Origin: a virus
Direction: 5' to 3' (one strand)
IMG/VR virus record: IMGVR_UViG_3300017917_001910
Span: 51,253-115,252 of that record
DNA: 64,000 bases
The notes beneath the pieces are model-generated. The model was not told the DNA's origin. It was given only the letters and a program-made list of their open reading frames with translations, and made no database searches. Below are positions 18,561-32,674 of the stretch, piece after piece. Position 1 is the first letter of the stretch; each line of letters starts with the position of its first letter. The position numbers and the translations under genes were made by a program.

Positions 18561-20321
18561 TTAGATTCTATTTAAATCCATTATTCTAATTACTCCGTAA
18601 AATTCTGGGCGGACGATCTTCTTAGCGTAACGTGTCATTACACCTTTTCTTGGAGTGAAGTTATTCGGATCGTAAACTAAAGGAGTCATAATCAATGGAA
18701 CATATGGACTATAAACCGCACCTGTTTCTAAGAATTGATTTCCTCTGTAACCCATTAAAATGGTACTTTCTAACATATAAGGGTTTTTGTAAACTTGGAA
18801 ACGATTATTCATCATACCTGTTTTTTGAACACCCATTGCAAATTGCATTTTATCACCATTAGTATCTGCTGCATATCCTGGAATAGATTCTAAGATAGTA
18901 GCAACGTCTGGAGAACAAACTAAGAAGTTCGCACCACCACGCATTGTTTTTTGATGAATTTTGTTAGATACTTTTTGGATTTTAGTTCCTAAAGTTTGGA
19001 ACCAAGTTTGTTGATTGTAGAATGCTCCTGTTGCCGCATCAACGATACCAGCATTTGCACTAGTAGGTAATACTGAAGTAGTAGTTAAGTTAGTATCTAC
19101 TGTACGACCAATTACTGCTGACCATCCCTCAACTGTCACTGCGTTTTGAATTAACATATCTAAAATCTCTAAATCAATTTCTTGAGAGATATACTCAGAT
19201 AACATTGAAGTTAATTCTGCTTCAGCATCAATTGCGTGGTATGCATTTAAATCTTGAGCAAATTCTGGAGTCCAAATAGCTTTTAATTTACGAGTCTTAG
19301 CAACGATTGGCTCAGAACGTAATTCAACGTTTATTTCTGGAATGTTAACGTTAGTATCGATTGATGTAGCATTTGTAGAACTATATCCACCACCATTACC
19401 ATATCCACCAGCTTCAAAATCACCACGACCTGCTGCTGTAGGTTGTAATTCATAGAATATTGTCATACCACCTGTTGCACCTTGATTAAATACTGTTGCA
19501 GCTGACGCAGAAACAACAAATGTAATTTGTGAATTATCTGAATTTACTCTAGTAAACTGCGGGAATGCAGTTATAGTACCAGTTGATGAAGAAATATTAA
19601 ATGCTCTTACGCCTTCTGTGTCAAAGTTAGGAATTGAACTAGATGCAATTATAATAGTTCTCATACAAGTATTTGTAGATGCTGCTAATGAAGCAGAATA
19701 AGTATTAAAGAATCTTGTATCATAATTGTAATCAGATGCTACAATCGAACCGGTTGTATATACACCAGTTGCAGGTGCTGAACCTGACACTAAAGCCGCA
19801 CTAGCTGTAGTAGCAATTGAATAACCAAATCTACCAGCACCATAAAGACCACCTGACGGATCACCAGTTGTACTAGTTACACCAAATACTGAATTAGTTT
19901 GGTAACCTGGCTGACTAGGTAATGCACCAGCAGTATTAGTCGTGCTAAAACCTGCTTGGTTTGTAGTACCATATTTAAAATCTAAATAAAATACTAGACC
20001 TGAAGGTAAAGACATTGGTTGAACTGAAACGAAATCTTTTGCAGCAATTTCACTGAAAATACGTCTTACTAACGGAAGCGCAACACCTGACCATTCTTCT
20101 GATCCTGCTGCTGTACCTGTTCTGCTAGATTCTGTGATTAATTGCTTAGCTTGGTTTTCTAATAAAATTGAGATGCTAGCTCTGTCATATTCGCTATCAA
20201 CTCCTTCTAACAAACCGGTCTTAGACCATTTGTTAACTAAACCTTTAGATTCTTCTAAAAGTTGAAAAGATCTATCTTGTGTAGATGAAACGATCTTTTG
20301 AATTGCATTTAAATTACTCAT
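18561..20321 (-). CDS. gp23: Major capsid protein gp23
   Basis: 586 residues. The N-terminal 65 residues are a helical propeptide. LITE-S at 61-65 fits the gp21 cleavage rule almost exactly where T4 gp23 is cut (E65). GSEEWSGVALPLVRRIFSEI follows, the typical start of the mature capsid. A Ser/Gly/Thr-rich insertion (about 110-300) corresponds to the surface insertion domain. The conserved C-terminal half includes TRKLKAIWTPEFAQDL, ANFLVCSPDVATILE, GYRGNQFLETGAVYSPYVPL and FTPRKGVMTRYAKK. It assembles around the gp22 core. A strong terminator lies downstream. Confidence 0.95.
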   Translation of the reverse strand: MSNLNAIQKIVSSTQDRSFQLLEESKGLVNKWSKTGLLEGVDSEYDRASISILLENQAKQLITESSRTGTAAGSEEWSGVALPLVRRIFSEIAAKDFVSVQPMSLPSGLVFYLDFKYGTTNQAGFSTTNTAGALPSQPGYQTNSVFGVTSTTGDPSGGLYGAGRFGYSIATTASAALVSGSAPATGVYTTGSIVASDYNYDTRFFNTYSASLAASTNTCMRTIIIASSSIPNFDTEGVRAFNISSSTGTITAFPQFTRVNSDNSQITFVVSASAATVFNQGATGGMTIFYELQPTAAGRGDFEAGGYGNGGGYSSTNATSIDTNVNIPEINVELRSEPIVAKTRKLKAIWTPEFAQDLNAYHAIDAEAELTSMLSEYISQEIDLEILDMLIQNAVTVEGWSAVIGRTVDTNLTTTSVLPTSANAGIVDAATGAFYNQQTWFQTLGTKIQKVSNKIHQKTMRGGANFLVCSPDVATILESIPGYAADTNGDKMQFAMGVQKTGMMNNRFQVYKNPYMLESTILMGYRGNQFLETGAVYSPYVPLIMTPLVYDPNNFTPRKGVMTRYAKKIVRPEFYGVIRIMDLNRI

Positions 20322-20364: not shown

Positions 20365-21306
20365 TTATTTTAAACCTGCTAATTTCTTAAATCTGTTCGC
20401 AATTTGTTCGCCTTCAGATAAAATAGTTTGTTTAGGTTTTGTTGATGCAACTGGTTTAGATGCAACTGATTCTTTTACTAATGTTTTTCTGCTTGAGAAA
20501 GATTCAGATAAAGTAGCATATACTAATTTAACTTCTCTAATTGTTCTAGCACGATCGAAAGTATCAATTACTTTAACTTTTTGCGATTCATTTAAAGTAT
20601 GAGCTTTAAATAATTTGTTTGTGAATAAAAGTTTTGCATTAAGCATATTAACTTCATTTAAACTATCTTTCATAGTTTTAATTGCGCTATAAGCTTCTTC
20701 TAACTCTTTTTTCATTTTAGCATTTTCTTTAGCTAATAAAGTATCTTTTGCATCAACTTTACCATCGCCATCGTAATCCATATCGTTATGCTCCATACCA
20801 TATTCATCCATTTCTTCTTCATCGCCCATTAATTCTTCTAATAAAGCATCAATGTCTACTTCTTCTTCAATAGCATCTGGATCTTCGCCTGGGTTTAAAT
20901 CAAACTCGTCCATCTTGTCCATTTCATCTTCTTCGTCTAACTGACGTAAGATTTCTGATAAATCATACTCATCTAATTCTTCTTCTGCTGGCATTTCTTC
21001 TGCTGGCATTTCTTCTGCTTCTACGCCTCTTGACATAATGTCGAATTCATCGAATTGTCCATCACCATCAGTGTCAATTGATAAATCTCCTACGTCCATT
21101 CCGTCATCTTCCATTCCTGGAGTTTCCATTGGCATTTCATCTTCCATTCCTTCTTCATCTTCCATTCCTTCTTCTGCTAAACGAGAAGAAATCATAGATT
21201 GAATTCTTGGGGTGAATGCTTCTTCCAAAGCTAACTTAGCATTAGCAATGGCTGTTTCTTTAACTGCTTTTGCATCAGCAATAGCTTCTTTTAATAAGTC
21301 TTGCAT
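20365..21306 (-). CDS. gp22: Prohead core scaffold gp22 with dockerin-like calcium loops
   Basis: 313 residues, extremely acidic in the middle. Residues 1-35 form an amphipathic helix with gp21-type sites (DLLKE-A and LALEE-A). Residues 78-89 (DTDGDGQFDEFD) and 177-188 (DYDGDGKVDAKD) are EF-hand/dockerin-type calcium loops. A long charged coiled coil follows (about 195-290), and the C-terminus is NRFKKLAGLK. Place before gp23, composition and C-terminal helix fit the T4 scaffold core, which is degraded after shell assembly. The calcium loops and the terminal peptide recur in the neighbouring 181-residue protein. Confidence 0.8.
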   Translation of the reverse strand: MQDLLKEAIADAKAVKETAIANAKLALEEAFTPRIQSMISSRLAEEGMEDEEGMEDEMPMETPGMEDDGMDVGDLSIDTDGDGQFDEFDIMSRGVEAEEMPAEEMPAEEELDEYDLSEILRQLDEEDEMDKMDEFDLNPGEDPDAIEEEVDIDALLEELMGDEEEMDEYGMEHNDMDYDGDGKVDAKDTLLAKENAKMKKELEEAYSAIKTMKDSLNEVNMLNAKLLFTNKLFKAHTLNESQKVKVIDTFDRARTIREVKLVYATLSESFSSRKTLVKESVASKPVASTKPKQTILSEGEQIANRFKKLAGLK

Positions 21307-21525: not shown

Positions 21526-22071
21526 TTATTTAATACCTGCTAATCTTTTAAATTTATTAATTTCTCTTTCATTTATTTCATGAGCAATAACACTTCTTCT
21601 ATTCTTTAAATATGAATCTTGTTTGTCTACTTTACCATCATTATTAATATCACTATCTTCATGACCTACTGCATCTAATTCATTTTCGTTTATCTTGTAA
21701 TATTTATTTAATACACTTCCGATATCTTCATAAACGCTTTCTAATCTTTGTTGTAAAGTATTAATTTCACCAGCTGTCTTTTCAAATAATTGCATAGAAC
21801 TTTCTAATGTTTTCATATGACGTCCTACTGTAATACTATCAAAGCTTCCTTCTGTTTCTTGTAAAGTCATATCTTTAGCTTTTTGAATTACATCTTTCAT
21901 TTCATTAGTAATGTTACGTAATTCGTCTGCTCTGTATATATGATTGCCATATTCATTAAACTTGCCAATCATCTCCATGATTTCTTTTTTATCTTTAGGA
22001 GATAATTTTATTTTTTCTGATGCTTCATTTTGCATCCACTTTTCGCTTATAATTCTTTTTAAACTAGTCAT
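21526..22071 (-). CDS. Second prohead core protein with dockerin-like loop and FKxLAG tail
   Basis: I use the ATG at 22071 ([12 protein letters not shown]), just past the upstream stop, giving 181 residues. An ATG 12 codons earlier would overlap that gene. Most of the protein is helical and charged. Residues 141-152 ([12 protein letters not shown]) form a dockerin-type calcium loop preceded by GHEDS. The protein ends [10 protein letters not shown], almost the same as the end of gp22 (NRFKKLAGLK). IISE near residue 8 resembles a gp21-type site. I infer a minor core/scaffold protein that binds the same shell or portal site as gp22. Confidence 0.65.
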
Positions 22072-22075
22072 TGTA

Positions 22076-22537
22076 TTATTCTTTATTAAATGGTTTACCT
22101 TTTTCATCAGAATTAATTTTTTCTACACTTACTCCGATAAATTGTACTGGCTTTCCTATTTTGTCATTAACTACTAAAAAATTAGTCATTGAAGTATTCA
22201 TGATTCTAATAATATAATATTGGCCGGGCTTCCCGTTAAATTCTACTTTAAATCCAGGCTGCACTTTAAAGTTAAGATTTTCTGTTGGCGGAGGAGTAGG
22301 TTTTGGTTCTTCCGGTACATCATTAACAGCAGGTCTTTGCTGTGGTTTTGTAGGTACTGGCGGCTTTGGTTGTGTTCTAGCTGGTTGAGGTGCAGGTCTT
22401 GCAGGAGCTGCTCCGGGTACTCCAGGTTCTTGTTCTTGAAGTCTTTTACGATTCGGATGAGCGTGCGTAACAACTCCCCAAGTACCAAAGGCTTCATTTA
22501 AAAGACCTCTAAGTTTTATTTTATTATCTTTTGCCAT
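22076..22537 (-). CDS. Proline-rich head protein with N-terminal LLNE-A site
   Basis: 153 residues. The basic N-terminus [15 protein letters not shown] contains an LNE-A gp21-type site. A long proline/alanine linker (about 45-90) follows, then a small beta domain ([35 protein letters not shown]). It sits between the prohead protease and core genes. I infer an internal head or decoration protein. The KLxxLLxE start is shared with the 113-residue protein at 3.7-4.0 kb, suggesting a common capsid-targeting peptide. Confidence 0.55.
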
Positions 22538-22544
22538 TTTCTTA

Positions 22545-23150
22545 TTATTTAAAGTCTGTTATTATATCTGTGATAATTTTTTCTACAGAATAATATTTGT
22601 TTGTTATGTTTATTTGACCAGAACCTTCATTAATAGGTCTTAAGTAAGCTCCTTGGGTTGATGGACTAGAAACAAAGTCAAAGCATAATAAATTAAAATC
22701 ATCTTGAACTTGTACATGTCCTTGCTCGTCAATTTGCTTAACTGAACCTAAACCTCTTGAACTAATACCTAATTTAATACCGGCTTGAAATAATGCTTTT
22801 AAAATATTTCCGCTAGGTGTAGGTAATACTTCAACAGTTCCTACTAAATCATCACCGTCCCAATGCATCTCTAAAATATTATGAGAAACATTATTTAAGT
22901 TAATAACTGAAGAATCTGGATGATCTAATTCTCCCAATGCTCTTCTTTCTTTAACTTCTTGTCCAAGATATCTAGAAGCTTCACGCTCTAATATAGGTCT
23001 AGGATAAGTTCTTCCGTTATGATTAAAAGCATCTGCTCGTTGTAAAGTACCTTTAACAATTAAACGACCGCCATTTTGTTCTAGCGATTCATTAATCATT
23101 TGAGGCGTTACTTCAAACGGAAGATAATCTATAAGTAAATTAGTATTCAT
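22545..23150 (-). CDS. gp21: Prohead core protease gp21
   Basis: 201 residues. Serine protease of the herpes/T4 prohead type: ALGELDHP supplies the catalytic His (H77) and LGISSRGLGS the nucleophile Ser (S130 or S131). NGRTYPRPILERE, VEVLPTPSGNILKALFQAG and CFDFVSSPST are standard family segments. It digests the core and trims capsid proteins at [L/I]-x-E sites before DNA packaging. MINE-S near the N-terminus and PINE-G near the C-terminus may be self-processing sites. Located between portal and gp22 as in T4. Confidence 0.93.
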   Translation of the reverse strand: MNTNLLIDYLPFEVTPQMINESLEQNGGRLIVKGTLQRADAFNHNGRTYPRPILEREASRYLGQEVKERRALGELDHPDSSVINLNNVSHNILEMHWDGDDLVGTVEVLPTPSGNILKALFQAGIKLGISSRGLGSVKQIDEQGHVQVQDDFNLLCFDFVSSPSTQGAYLRPINEGSGQINITNKYYSVEKIITDIITDFK

Positions 23151-27976: not shown

Positions 27977-29611
27977 TTATAACAACCATGAAATATTTTC
28001 ATCTTGCTTTCCAACTTTCATTGTCCATGGATTTTGTTGTGGTGAATGTGATGATCTAGAATATACAGGTGCAGATTTTCCTATTAAGCCTACTGTCTTT
28101 CTGTGAAGATCTAATCCTTGTTGACGTAATCTTAAAGCAGTATCTCTAACCCAAAGTGCAATAGATAATGACATTACTAAGTCATCATTATATCCATATT
28201 GAGCTTCTGGTCTAGACCCATTCCAAATAAAGTTTTGAAGTTCGTTAATTGTTCGTTTACAATGAATAATAGGAGCTTTATCTCTCATATACTCTACTAG
28301 TTTAGATATGATTAATGGTCTATTTTTTACTGTTTGAGAAAATCCTGGAGTCATTTTAGATTTAGTTGCTAAATCATACCCAGATGCCATTTGTTGTTGA
28401 ATATCTACTACTGTTAAATCTGCACTGCTATAAAATAAATTTCCATATCCTCTATCAATAGCCGGTTGTATTGCGGCCCATCCAATATTCGAATTTTCTA
28501 TTACTAATAAAGCATCGTTATATTCAGTTGCAACTGCTACTAATAAATTTCCATAATCTCTAGGATCTAATTTTCCTTTATATGTAGCGCATTGCTCAAC
28601 GGTTTCAATATCAATAATATGAAATGAAGAATAGTCAGATGCATCACCACGAGAAACGTCAGCTACAACCATATATGATTTAGTTACGTCAGGATATTTC
28701 CATACCCACATATTTCCGTCAAATCCGCGTCTTTCTATAGGATCATATAATAATCCAGATTCTTCCCAATACCATTTTAAAATTGTAGGCTCGATAACTG
28801 TATTACCAGATGTCGTAAAGTCGCAATCACACTCCTGAGCTGCTAATTTTTCTCCTAATTCTGCTGATTGAGCATCTCTCCAGGTTTGATCTCTGTCTGG
28901 GTGTACTGTCCAATGTAATTTAATAGTATGAAAGTTATTATCTCCTTCTTCTGCTCTTTGCCACATTCTGTGGAAAAAGTTACCCATACCATTAGGAGTA
29001 GATAACATAATACATTTACCACCCGTCGCCATCGTTTGTTGCAAACCACCCCAAAGTTCTTCAATTGTATTAGAATCAATAAACGCAGCCTCATCTATAA
29101 TAAGTAATGATACTGCTTCAGAACGACCTGCAGATACTGATGTAGAAGACGCTTTTACTTGAGACCCGTTAGATAATCGTAATGATAATTTATTATCTTC
29201 TGTTGATTGAGCATTTTGCTTTAACCAACTAGGTAAATTATCATACATAACTCTTACCTTAGTTACTAAGTTTCTAGCTACTTCTTGACGCGTTGCAATA
29301 GTTAAGCAGTTTTTATCTTCATGAAAGACCATTAACCATAATGTATATCCTGCAGATAAAGTAGAAATACCTAACTGACGAGACTTTAAAATAATATTTC
29401 TATCATTATCTCTAAAATCATATAAGCACTGCTCTTGAAAAGGATAAAGATCAAAAAGCATTTTGCCTTTCATTGGATGTTGAATATAACAATACTTACG
29501 CATAAAGTATACGGGGTCTTTTGCGCATTTTTTATATTCCTCCCTTATAATATCCTTTACATTTTGTGGAGTTTGAACAACTTTATTTTGATAATCGCTT
29601 ACATCAACCAT
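27977..29611 (-). CDS. gp17: Terminase large subunit gp17
   Basis: 544 residues. The ATPase domain carries the SRQLGIST variant of Walker A (near 77), Walker B LLIIDEAAFID (near 170) and coupling motif MLSTPNG. The C-terminal nuclease domain has VVADVSRGD (first acidic residue), LLVIENSNIG and NDDLVMSLSIALW (last acidic pair). It pumps DNA into the prohead through the portal and cuts concatemers. No small subunit (gp16) is clearly recognisable nearby. Confidence 0.95.
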   Translation of the reverse strand: MVDVSDYQNKVVQTPQNVKDIIREEYKKCAKDPVYFMRKYCYIQHPMKGKMLFDLYPFQEQCLYDFRDNDRNIILKSRQLGISTLSAGYTLWLMVFHEDKNCLTIATRQEVARNLVTKVRVMYDNLPSWLKQNAQSTEDNKLSLRLSNGSQVKASSTSVSAGRSEAVSLLIIDEAAFIDSNTIEELWGGLQQTMATGGKCIMLSTPNGMGNFFHRMWQRAEEGDNNFHTIKLHWTVHPDRDQTWRDAQSAELGEKLAAQECDCDFTTSGNTVIEPTILKWYWEESGLLYDPIERRGFDGNMWVWKYPDVTKSYMVVADVSRGDASDYSSFHIIDIETVEQCATYKGKLDPRDYGNLLVAVATEYNDALLVIENSNIGWAAIQPAIDRGYGNLFYSSADLTVVDIQQQMASGYDLATKSKMTPGFSQTVKNRPLIISKLVEYMRDKAPIIHCKRTINELQNFIWNGSRPEAQYGYNDDLVMSLSIALWVRDTALRLRQQGLDLHRKTVGLIGKSAPVYSRSSHSPQQNPWTMKVGKQDENISWLL

Positions 29612-30916: not shown

Positions 30917-32674
30917 TTATTTTCTAAATTGACTTTCCATGCCTTTTATAATAAATGAGCCAGTTATCTTAAATACATCTGGATATAATCCTCTTACTAC
31001 AATACCCTCTTGATCTTTACTATCTCCCAGATCTGAAGTAATTGATTCTAATACCTCATCACCTAAAAGCATTGTAGATAAGTAAATAAAATATCCATCA
31101 ATTGCTGCTTTATAATCTGCAGGATCTTTTACTATTTCATTAATATTATTATTTCCTGATAACCTCATTAATATTTCTTTAGATACTGCACCAACTGTTT
31201 TATCATCTATTAAAGTTACTTTTTGACCACTAGGTATTGTTTGAATTTCATCTAACCATTGTTTTAATGATTTAGATTCTTTTTTACCATTAATGATAAT
31301 AGTATGTTTTTGATTTAATACTGAACTTAAATTTGCTGGTTTAGATGGTCTAGTAGTAAATTCATGTACCACTTCAAATCCAGATTTTTCTGCAATTGGA
31401 TTCATTTTTGCTACTAAAGATTCTAAAGCTTTTTTATTATATGAAATTTCTTTTGATTCTCTTCTTTTTGGTGTAGCTTGAAATAATTCTAATAATCCAT
31501 GAATAGCTAAAAAGTTTTTAGCATATGATAATACGTTAGTACTTCCAGCAACATATTCGACATTAAACATTATATTTGGATTATCCCACATACCTAATGC
31601 TTTTAATTCTTGTTGAATGCTAGGTAATGAATCATTAAAAATATCTAATACTTTACCACCTGTTTGAATAAACCCATGTCCTTCTCCGAATCTATCTAAT
31701 AAATCTGCTTTAGTAATTCCTTTAACATCTAAAGGTTTCATTGAGCCTCTATCTAAAACAAATTGTCTTTGACCATCTAAAGTAACTAATCTAACAGATG
31801 CATTTACTCCGTCAATTTTTATTGCTGCTGGGTTTGTAGTTAGGTATGTAGCAGAGTCTTCAAAAACATTAATTAAATCTTTACCAGAATTTACTTGAGG
31901 TAAATCAAAAGGGTGTTTCATATGACCGGCTGCACCTCCTTCATTAATAGGTACGCAATTAGGAACTTGCTTCTTTCCCTTTTTCTTCATACCTATCTGC
32001 TTATATCCATCCCAACAATCTTCTTGAAGTAGTTTATTTAACCACCAATCTTTACTAAATTTTTCGGTCATTTTATTTTCTAATTTATCAAATATATAGT
32101 TAGCCATTTTTTCTGAATACCAACCAAATATTGCTTGAAATAATTCTTTTTTCTCTTCTCTTGTTTTTGTAGTATCTCCTAATACCTTTCTTATTTCTGT
32201 CCCAGACATTTCTCCATATCCAGGAACCTTTAAAGAAATATGCGGAGCAGTAATTAAATATCCATGTTTAGATAATGGCTCTAAGTTATTTTCATTTCCT
32301 TTATAGTTTTGAAAAAAGCTAGGACTTCCGTCTTTTTTAGGACCTATTTTAAATCTAGGGTCTTCTCCCATATCTTTTTCTCCAACCATAAATACTACCG
32401 AGGTAGTTTCCGGGTCAAATTGGCTATATAGTTCTGCGGGACTGTACGGATTCTTTACTTCAATAATATGTGATGGGTCAATACCATATAGTTCAATAAT
32501 GGCTTTCTTTTCGTTAAAATTAAAAGGAGATTTTTCTGGGTCTACTTTATTTGATGTTACGATATAAGAGTTATCTTTCCCGAATTTATTTTGAAGCCAC
32601 ATAAATGCAGCTGCATGATGTTTTCCGAAAGGCTGAAATCTCCCGGGGTATATTGCTATTACTTTATTTTTCAT
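30917..32674 (-). CDS. Bifunctional NMN-type adenylyltransferase and ligase-fold nucleotidyltransferase
   Basis: 585 residues in three parts. Residues 1-200 form a cytidylyltransferase-like/NMNAT domain: YPGRFQPFGKHH (9-20, HxxH-type) and MSGTEIRKV (156-164). Residues about 215-260 form a basic linker with a WDGYKQIGMKKKG segment, bounded by LLQE-D (215-219) and PINE-G (242-246), both like gp21-type sites. Residues 265-585 carry ligase/capping-enzyme motifs: KIDG (286-289), FNVEYV, EGIVVRG (556-562) and FKI (568-570). The N-domain may make NAD from NMN. The C-domain should form a lysine-AMP intermediate, but its substrate is unknown. The bounding sites suggest release of two enzymes in the head. 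Confidence 0.72.
   Translation of the reverse strand: MKNKVIAIYPGRFQPFGKHHAAAFMWLQNKFGKDNSYIVTSNKVDPEKSPFNFNEKKAIIELYGIDPSHIIEVKNPYSPAELYSQFDPETTSVVFMVGEKDMGEDPRFKIGPKKDGSPSFFQNYKGNENNLEPLSKHGYLITAPHISLKVPGYGEMSGTEIRKVLGDTTKTREEKKELFQAIFGWYSEKMANYIFDKLENKMTEKFSKDWWLNKLLQEDCWDGYKQIGMKKKGKKQVPNCVPINEGGAAGHMKHPFDLPQVNSGKDLINVFEDSATYLTTNPAAIKIDGVNASVRLVTLDGQRQFVLDRGSMKPLDVKGITKADLLDRFGEGHGFIQTGGKVLDIFNDSLPSIQQELKALGMWDNPNIMFNVEYVAGSTNVLSYAKNFLAIHGLLELFQATPKRRESKEISYNKKALESLVAKMNPIAEKSGFEVVHEFTTRPSKPANLSSVLNQKHTIIINGKKESKSLKQWLDEIQTIPSGQKVTLIDDKTVGAVSKEILMRLSGNNNINEIVKDPADYKAAIDGYFIYLSTMLLGDEVLESITSDLGDSKDQEGIVVRGLYPDVFKITGSFIIKGMESQFRK

Follow-up and report, generated by a model that had tools for sequence, protein, structure and literature searches.

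The closest described counterparts of the gene analysed here are the internal proteins IPI-IPIII and Alt of phage T4, the nucleotidyltransferases detected in cyanomyovirus virions, and the polyvalent proteins. In T4, IPII and IPIII begin MKTYQEFIAE↓A (arrows mark a cut or predicted cut), and a review (PMC9026906) gives the first 10 residues of IPIII as enough for targeting, with positions 4 and 7 mattering most for targeting and positions 8 and 10 for processing. Among cyanophages, the core cytidylyltransferase T4-GC190 was found in S-SM1 virions (Sullivan et al. 2010, PMC3037559), and an NMNAT or cytidylyltransferase has been reported from virions of S-SCSM1 (PMC9602691) and, by 3 unique peptides, of S-CREM2 (PMC10665884); the latter paper cites virion detection in S-CBWM1 and S-SZBM1 as well, and its authors warn that strongly expressed proteins could be present through co-purification. 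The polyvalent proteins (Iyer et al. 2017, PMC5512222) are injected multidomain proteins with exchangeable modules, and the text of that paper mentions no adenylyltransferase or cytidylyltransferase.

We analysed a window of 64,000 nucleotides at the end of a virus record of 115,252 bases; in this window, positions 30917-32674 (minus strand) form an open reading frame of 585 amino acids (P0001), with stops throughout the plus strand (Table 1). The likeness to IPI-IPIII and Alt lies in the [LI]xE cutting rule, the head-gene cluster, the T4-type protease and a 10-residue leader in relatives, with aromatic or hydrophobic residues at positions 4, 7 and 8 and E at position 10; P0001 differs from them in joining two unrelated predicted enzymes in one chain, in its internal candidate cut sites, and in having no N-terminal leader. 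With the cyanomyovirus virion protein (T4-GC190; S-SCSM1 ORF91) it shares a HIGH-type nucleotidyltransferase, and in several cyanomyoviruses a gene with K[WY]DG (DUF6267-type) adjoins the NMNAT-like gene. The cyanomyovirus protein, in contrast, bears a T4-like leader, is encoded by a separate gene, belongs to another sub-family, and is paired with DUF6267 in place of the GGHM ligase-like domain found here.

Table 1. Coordinates of the putative precursor, its parts and neighbouring head genes, in window positions.
Feature	Position	Strand	Remark
Whole precursor gene (putative), 585 aa	30917..32674	-	DNA matches record once
NMNAT/PPAT-fold domain, residues 1-201	32072..32674	-	pLDDT about 80-95; Z 11.7 to 2r5w
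Disordered linker, residues 202-250	31925..32071	-	pLDDT < 50 throughout
FSKDWWLNKLLQE218, proposed internal targeting and cutting motif, predicted cut after E218	32021..32059	-	WW...[LIV]xE pattern; LLQED
27-residue Cys module DCWDGYKQIGMKKKGKKQVPNCVPINE245, predicted cut after E245	31940..32020	-	module shared with relatives and cyanophage proteins
Ligase-fold domain, residues 246-585 (KIDG, NxE, EG, FKI)	30920..31939	-	alone pLDDT 93.4, pTM 0.88; RNA ligases top structural matches
Terminase large subunit	27977..29611	-	1.3 kb downstream of precursor
Prohead protease, own PINE175↓GSG	22545..23150	-	phrog_207 E 6e-53
Small head-cluster protein with leader	22076..22537	-	gene position in head cluster
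Acidic core/scaffold-like protein, start MQDLLKE↓A	20365..21306	-	no PHROG match; role by position
Major capsid protein, predicted cut LITE64↓S	18561..20321	-	phrog_138; parallels T4 gp23 FLTE65↓A

The gene product and its two predicted folds

Every motif on which the first-pass annotation had based its description of a fused nucleotidyltransferase and ligase-fold protein was recovered in P0001: GRFQPFGKHH (11-20) and SGTEIR (157-162) in the N domain, LLQE (215-218, then D) and PINE (242-245, then G) in the linker, and KIDG (286-289), EGIVVRG (556-562) and FKI (568-570) in the C domain. The structure prediction that it had called for, run with AlphaFold2 on a 34-sequence alignment, gave two confident domains with disorder at residues 202-250 (mean pLDDT 85 for the whole protein); the relative placement of the domains in this model is meaningless, because the pTM is only 0.56.

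The N domain matched the Francisella NMNAT-Nudix protein 2r5w (the best Z) and the archaeal NMNAT 1m8k (Z 11.2), and PPATs lie within 1 Z unit, so that the fold match does not single out a substrate. Searches of solved structures with the N domain returned weak NMNAT/PPAT matches (E 0.02), and NCBIfam returned none. The domain is predicted to adopt a HIGH-type Rossmann fold and carries an ISSTxxR-type motif (MSGTEIR). The N-terminal motif of NMNATs and PPATs usually reads HxGH; in P0001 it is GKHH (17-20), in which the last His is kept in all 34 aligned sequences and G and H replace the usual first and third residues. The identification as an NMNAT is thus supported at the level of fold and motif only; PPAT structures score about equally, and HxGH is altered.

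For the C domain, the best VIA row was T4 RNA ligase 1 (Z 9.2 over 177 residues, rmsd 3.9, 18% identity), followed by other RNA ligases and DNA ligases, with no NAD-dependent ligase among the best 50 rows; ligase matches by Foldseek were weak (E about 0.01). As in T4 RNA ligase 1 and the ATP-dependent ligase superfamily, the predicted ligase-type fold is accompanied by KxDG, E in motif III, EG in motif IV and K in motif V, to which P0001 adds an N-terminal GGxxGHMxHPFD element that T4 RNA ligase 1 lacks. At the level of fold and motif only, these matches support the proposal that the C domain is a second adenylating enzyme. No family in Pfam, PHROGs or NCBIfam was matched above threshold by the C domain, and neither phmmer nor profile searches against solved structures gave anything useful for it or for whole P0001. 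P0001 matched no peptidase family, and the NAD-dependent ligase domain PF01653 had no match in the record, which is possibly incomplete.

Half of the 72 open reading frames of 520-670 amino acids (36) were kept for alignment, one set comprising 34 of these 36 (the near-copies L002 and L004 being left out) plus the window protein and the other comprising 33 relatives plus the window protein; a C-domain set drew on 42 listed sequences, of which 41 were used (without L124) together with the window's C domain. In the 34-sequence alignment, H19, H20, S157, G158, R162, E245, K286, D288, G289 and E373 were identical in 34/34, although longer forms with an inserted endonuclease and no E at the 245 site are absent from it because of the length limits; E556, G557 and K569 were identical in 33/34, the remaining sequence having a gap. 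Conservation of the catalytic residues is complete or almost complete in both folds, which argues for live enzymes. It also makes it very improbable that the domains are enzyme-derived structural pieces of the core or scaffold that have lost catalysis, as could otherwise be suspected from the position of the gene among core proteins and from the altered HxGH motif.

Glutamate sites at the domain borders

P0001 contains exactly two [LI]xE[GASD] sites, E218 and E245, and both fall inside the disordered linker. At least two such sites in the 202-250 span were obtained in 29 of 20,000 shuffles of residues 202-250 and in 27 of 5,000 shuffles of the whole protein, so that the suggestion that LLQE-D and PINE-G fit the gp21-type rule is borne out beyond chance. 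The string PINEG occurs twice in the 133 open reading frames of the 115-kb record (shuffles average 0.015), once in P0001 and once towards the C-terminal end of the prohead protease (E175 in a protein of 201 residues), and the two sites, PINE↓GGA and PINE↓GSG, are identical from P4 to P1'. Against cutting at E218 counts its P1' residue, which is D rather than A, G or S.

To describe the border in relatives, we collected 139 C-domain open reading frames, of which 134 have a visible junction (5 truncated or motif-less ones were left out) and 64 remain without near-duplicates. We found the junctions by searching for GGx[AGS]GH[ML]; the positions in this pattern are thereby fixed in advance, and the E at -1 is not. 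E at -1 together with [LIV] at -3 was found in 59/64 junctions, and the exact [LI]xE in 55/64; the exceptions are 4/64 with C at -1, all of which have an inserted HNH-like stretch, and 1/64 that starts at the junction (M at -1). In the isolate Microcystis phage Mel-JY01, which has the fusion, the junction reads NNIIAE↓GGLGGHM. Position -1 has an entropy of 0.45 bits and position -3 one of 1.05 bits, and most positions over -20 to -5 have 3-4 bits, so the E is retained while the rest of the upstream linker turns over. The WW...[LIV]xE pattern of the linker is present in 47 of 114 unique N-domain open reading frames, and the 27-residue Cys module in 26 of 132 unique open reading frames; in cyanophage proteins this module comes after TYQEFQE or FQQFQE.

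The inserted stretch is, by eye, an HNH-endonuclease-like open reading frame placed in frame in L011 (10735-11431), L006, L121, L124 and L125, with a remnant in L009. In L006 and L011 it lies exactly at the E245-G246 codons, and the junction then reads LLxC↓GG, not LLxE↓GG. As a check for introns, these loci were compared with Rfam at the gathering score (L006, L009, L011) and at E up to 1 (L006, L011, L121, L124), and in neither comparison did a family attain its threshold.

Scans for related loci gave at least 600 candidate stretches, of which the best 80 loci were kept. Of 132 unique open reading frames with either domain (truncated ones included), 86 have both (N before C in 79, C before N in 7), 18 the C domain only and 28 the N domain only. 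Module borders are often at E sites, and sequence comparison indicates that related genes exchange modules there. Among selected architectures, L012-L017 and L019 have the NMNAT-like domain followed by GG-starting nucleotidyltransferase-like modules (the alternative partner in L013 matches Pol-beta, PF18765, at E 1e-4, below its cut-off), and L164 has it followed by DUF6267 (E 6e-100); PHROG 455 covers DUF6267 together with the NMNAT-like domain. Several unrelated effector-type domains per chain, exchanged among relatives, are thus found, a weak zincin match occurring in L079 only. Zincin-like and Pol-beta-type modules (both weak matches) are shared with the polyvalent proteins, whose release PMC5512222 attributes to embedded metallopeptidases, whereas the borders in P0001-type chains are predicted prohead-protease sites.

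When the profile of the GGHM ligase-like family was compared with that of DUF6267, the similarity was not significant (E 0.15), and the two are for this reason treated as separate partner families. Six aligned members of DUF6267, a Pfam family of unknown function, share an invariant KWDG. The family adjoins or is fused to NMNAT-like proteins (L164:7947-10229, L023:3342-4565), and it may be a second ligase-like partner; a literature search, outside which most subscription journals lay, found no paper treating DUF6267 with phages. Two further chains were observed. The 1483-residue open reading frame L079:7998-12449 starts directly with MGGAAGHM, without a leader, and continues with an NMNAT-like and a weak zincin-like module. 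The 915-residue chain L193:5584-8331, from the 484-kb uncultured phage LR756508, lies upstream of a terminase-like open reading frame and consists of an [LI]xE leader, a ParB-like stretch (by eye), an NMNAT-like domain and a ligase-like domain.

Head genes, leaders and virion relatives

The terminase large subunit gene follows that of P0001 at 1.3 kb downstream, and the genes for the portal, the prohead protease, the core proteins and the major capsid protein lie in the same direction. In 87 of 119 related loci with at least 4 kb of downstream sequence (some of these loci share one contig), the terminase large subunit gene is also found downstream in the same orientation. Capsid and terminase are of T4 type, with Microcystis phage Mel-JY01 (57% and 52%) and Flavobacterium phage immuto (53% and 55%) as the nearest isolates, and the virus is a T4-like phage of lake bacteria; a literature search found no paper naming Mel-JY01. 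The capsid site LITE64↓S is in register with LISE↓A of Mel-JY01 and IVSE↓A of immuto, and with FLTE65↓A of T4 by position. An EF-hand-like motif, DxVGxEDxDxNNDGKxDxxDxYLxNRR, is common to window positions 21526-22107, S-SCSM1 protein 92 (L178) and immuto_191 (L192), head-cluster proteins from different phages, one of which is annotated as a virion protein.

Standalone C-domain genes encode short leaders that end at the junction site (MISFKQFVLE, MITFKQFLLE, MNLIKILLSE and a 25-residue form ending SLLLE), of which the 10-residue form MISFKQFVLE↓GG is an example, and these leaders agree with the T4 capsid-targeting sequence at positions 4, 7, 8 and 10. Among selected N-domain genes, L162, L164, L165, L167 and L170 begin with a leader ending [LIM]xE. 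P0001 has no N-terminal capsid targeting sequence and begins MKNKVIAIYPGRFQP, and its targeting must therefore be internal or through partners; we infer that it would run through the linker helix FSKDWWLNKLLQE. Two adjoining small open reading frames in L176 (record positions 28416-28823 and 28849-29181) share the start MKISQLKSLIKE↓SIKEVL and are possibly head-targeted.

Among annotated cyanophage NMNAT-like proteins, 7/9 have a leader ending [LI]xE within 12 residues, 6 of them with T4 spacing, and MKSFLQFLKE↓A is a cyanophage leader of this kind; those of P-HM1 and S-RIM44 (2/9) have none as annotated, and in a tenth protein, from C48C1, the leader lies just upstream of the annotated start. 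Across the S-SCSM1 proteome, the strict leader pattern was found in 1/48 virion and 2/234 other proteins (3/282 in all, p = 0.43), and the bare T4 rule in 5/48 and 6/234 (p = 0.024, two patterns having been tried), where the virion set is the 48 proteins marked 'virion protein' in the sequence record (the paper gives 45). The strict pattern is thus no general marker of S-SCSM1 virion proteins, and its force is specific to the NMNAT-like family. A literature search that covered few subscription journals found no paper tying the capsid targeting sequence to NMNAT or cyanophages in this way.

With PHROG 395, S-SCSM1 ORF91 matched at 1e-104 and the P0001 N domain at 1e-5, and tblastn of P0001 did not reach the cyanomyovirus NMNAT/cytidylyltransferase sub-family; judged from these comparisons, the cyanophage virion NMNAT-like proteins are a sub-family related to, but distinct from, the P0001 N domain. 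In published proteomics we found no report of the ligase-like domain in virions.

Comparison therefore supports the proposal of the first-pass annotation that the chain is a packaged precursor cut at E218 and E245, through conserved sites at the disordered border, leaders on relatives, the head-gene neighbourhood and virion NMNAT-like relatives, and we consider head packaging and cutting of P0001 likely, with packaging, cutting, injection and activity all inferred for this phage. Because the floppy linker bears the cutting signals of the virus's own head maturation, P0001 is probably packed as one chain, cut in the head and delivered with the DNA. The precursor of this T4-like phage would be targeted to the head and assemble into the prohead core, where the prohead protease would cut it after both glutamates, yielding residues 1-218 as an NMNAT-fold enzyme, 219-245 as the 27-residue Cys module and 246-585 as an RNA-ligase-like enzyme; both enzymes would stay in the head alongside the DNA and be delivered into the cell together with it. 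Could P0001 instead be a bifunctional enzyme that acts in the infected cell and is never packaged or cut, its E sites being ordinary linker residues? The missing N-terminal leader would fit this, as would the NMNAT and NAPRTase that some phages encode together for NAD synthesis (PMC7824862). Set against it are the conservation of the E sites at the module border, the leaders on standalone relatives, the detection of NMNAT-like relatives in virions and the location in the head cluster, which together make it quite unlikely.

Possible purposes of the packaged enzymes

If the enzymes are packaged and cut as proposed, they could serve NAD supply at infection, perhaps against NAD-depleting defence, as the first-pass annotation had suggested. 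An NMNAT fold with its best Z to a bifunctional NMNAT speaks for this, and effects on NAD were proposed by the authors of PMC9602691 and PMC10665884. The fold specificity, however, is tied with PPAT, the ligase partner is left unexplained, and neither NAPRTase nor NAMPT has a match in the 115-kb record. What NADases release is nicotinamide rather than NMN, and NMNAT alone cannot rebuild NAD from nicotinamide. The NAMPT family PF04095 had no match in the 115,252 bases of the record, which is possibly a fragment, and on account of this absence an anti-NADase role was set aside as the main purpose. We regard the NAD reading as a whole as doubtful, and its defence component fares poorly.

The modelled ligase-like arm would point at least as much to RNA repair as to an NAD purpose. 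In this alternative, P0001 would likewise be packaged and cut, and would serve RNA (tRNA) end repair against RNA-cutting defences; this would be the work of the RNA-ligase-like arm, joined in relatives by nucleotidyltransferase modules of Pol-beta type. RNA ligases lead the structural matches of the C domain, a sub-threshold Pol-beta match is present in the alternative partner, and jumbo phages are described with repair sets of RNA ligase and Pol-beta nucleotidyltransferase (PMC7824862). The Foldseek values for ligases are, however, weak, and it is hard to see what part the NMNAT arm would play in RNA repair, so that we put RNA repair forward only tentatively. In the form that we favour, with the same reserve, the ligase-like arm would seal or modify RNA ends early in infection and the NMNAT-like arm would make or recycle a dinucleotide, both activities being predicted.

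More generally, and with somewhat less than even confidence, we suggest that head polyproteins occur in T4-like phages from lakes and seas, chains in which exchangeable enzymes are bordered by prohead-protease sites, each with a short targeting helix, and from which one maturation step would free a kit of enzymes for early infection. In this reading, cutting may also activate the ligase-like enzyme by freeing its conserved GGxxGHM N-terminus. If this is true, it would provide a sequence rule for recognising phage-injected proteins, as modules that follow a T4-like leader or are bounded by [LI]xE↓GG, and isolated phages would allow direct tests of their purpose at infection, in RNA repair or NAD metabolism.
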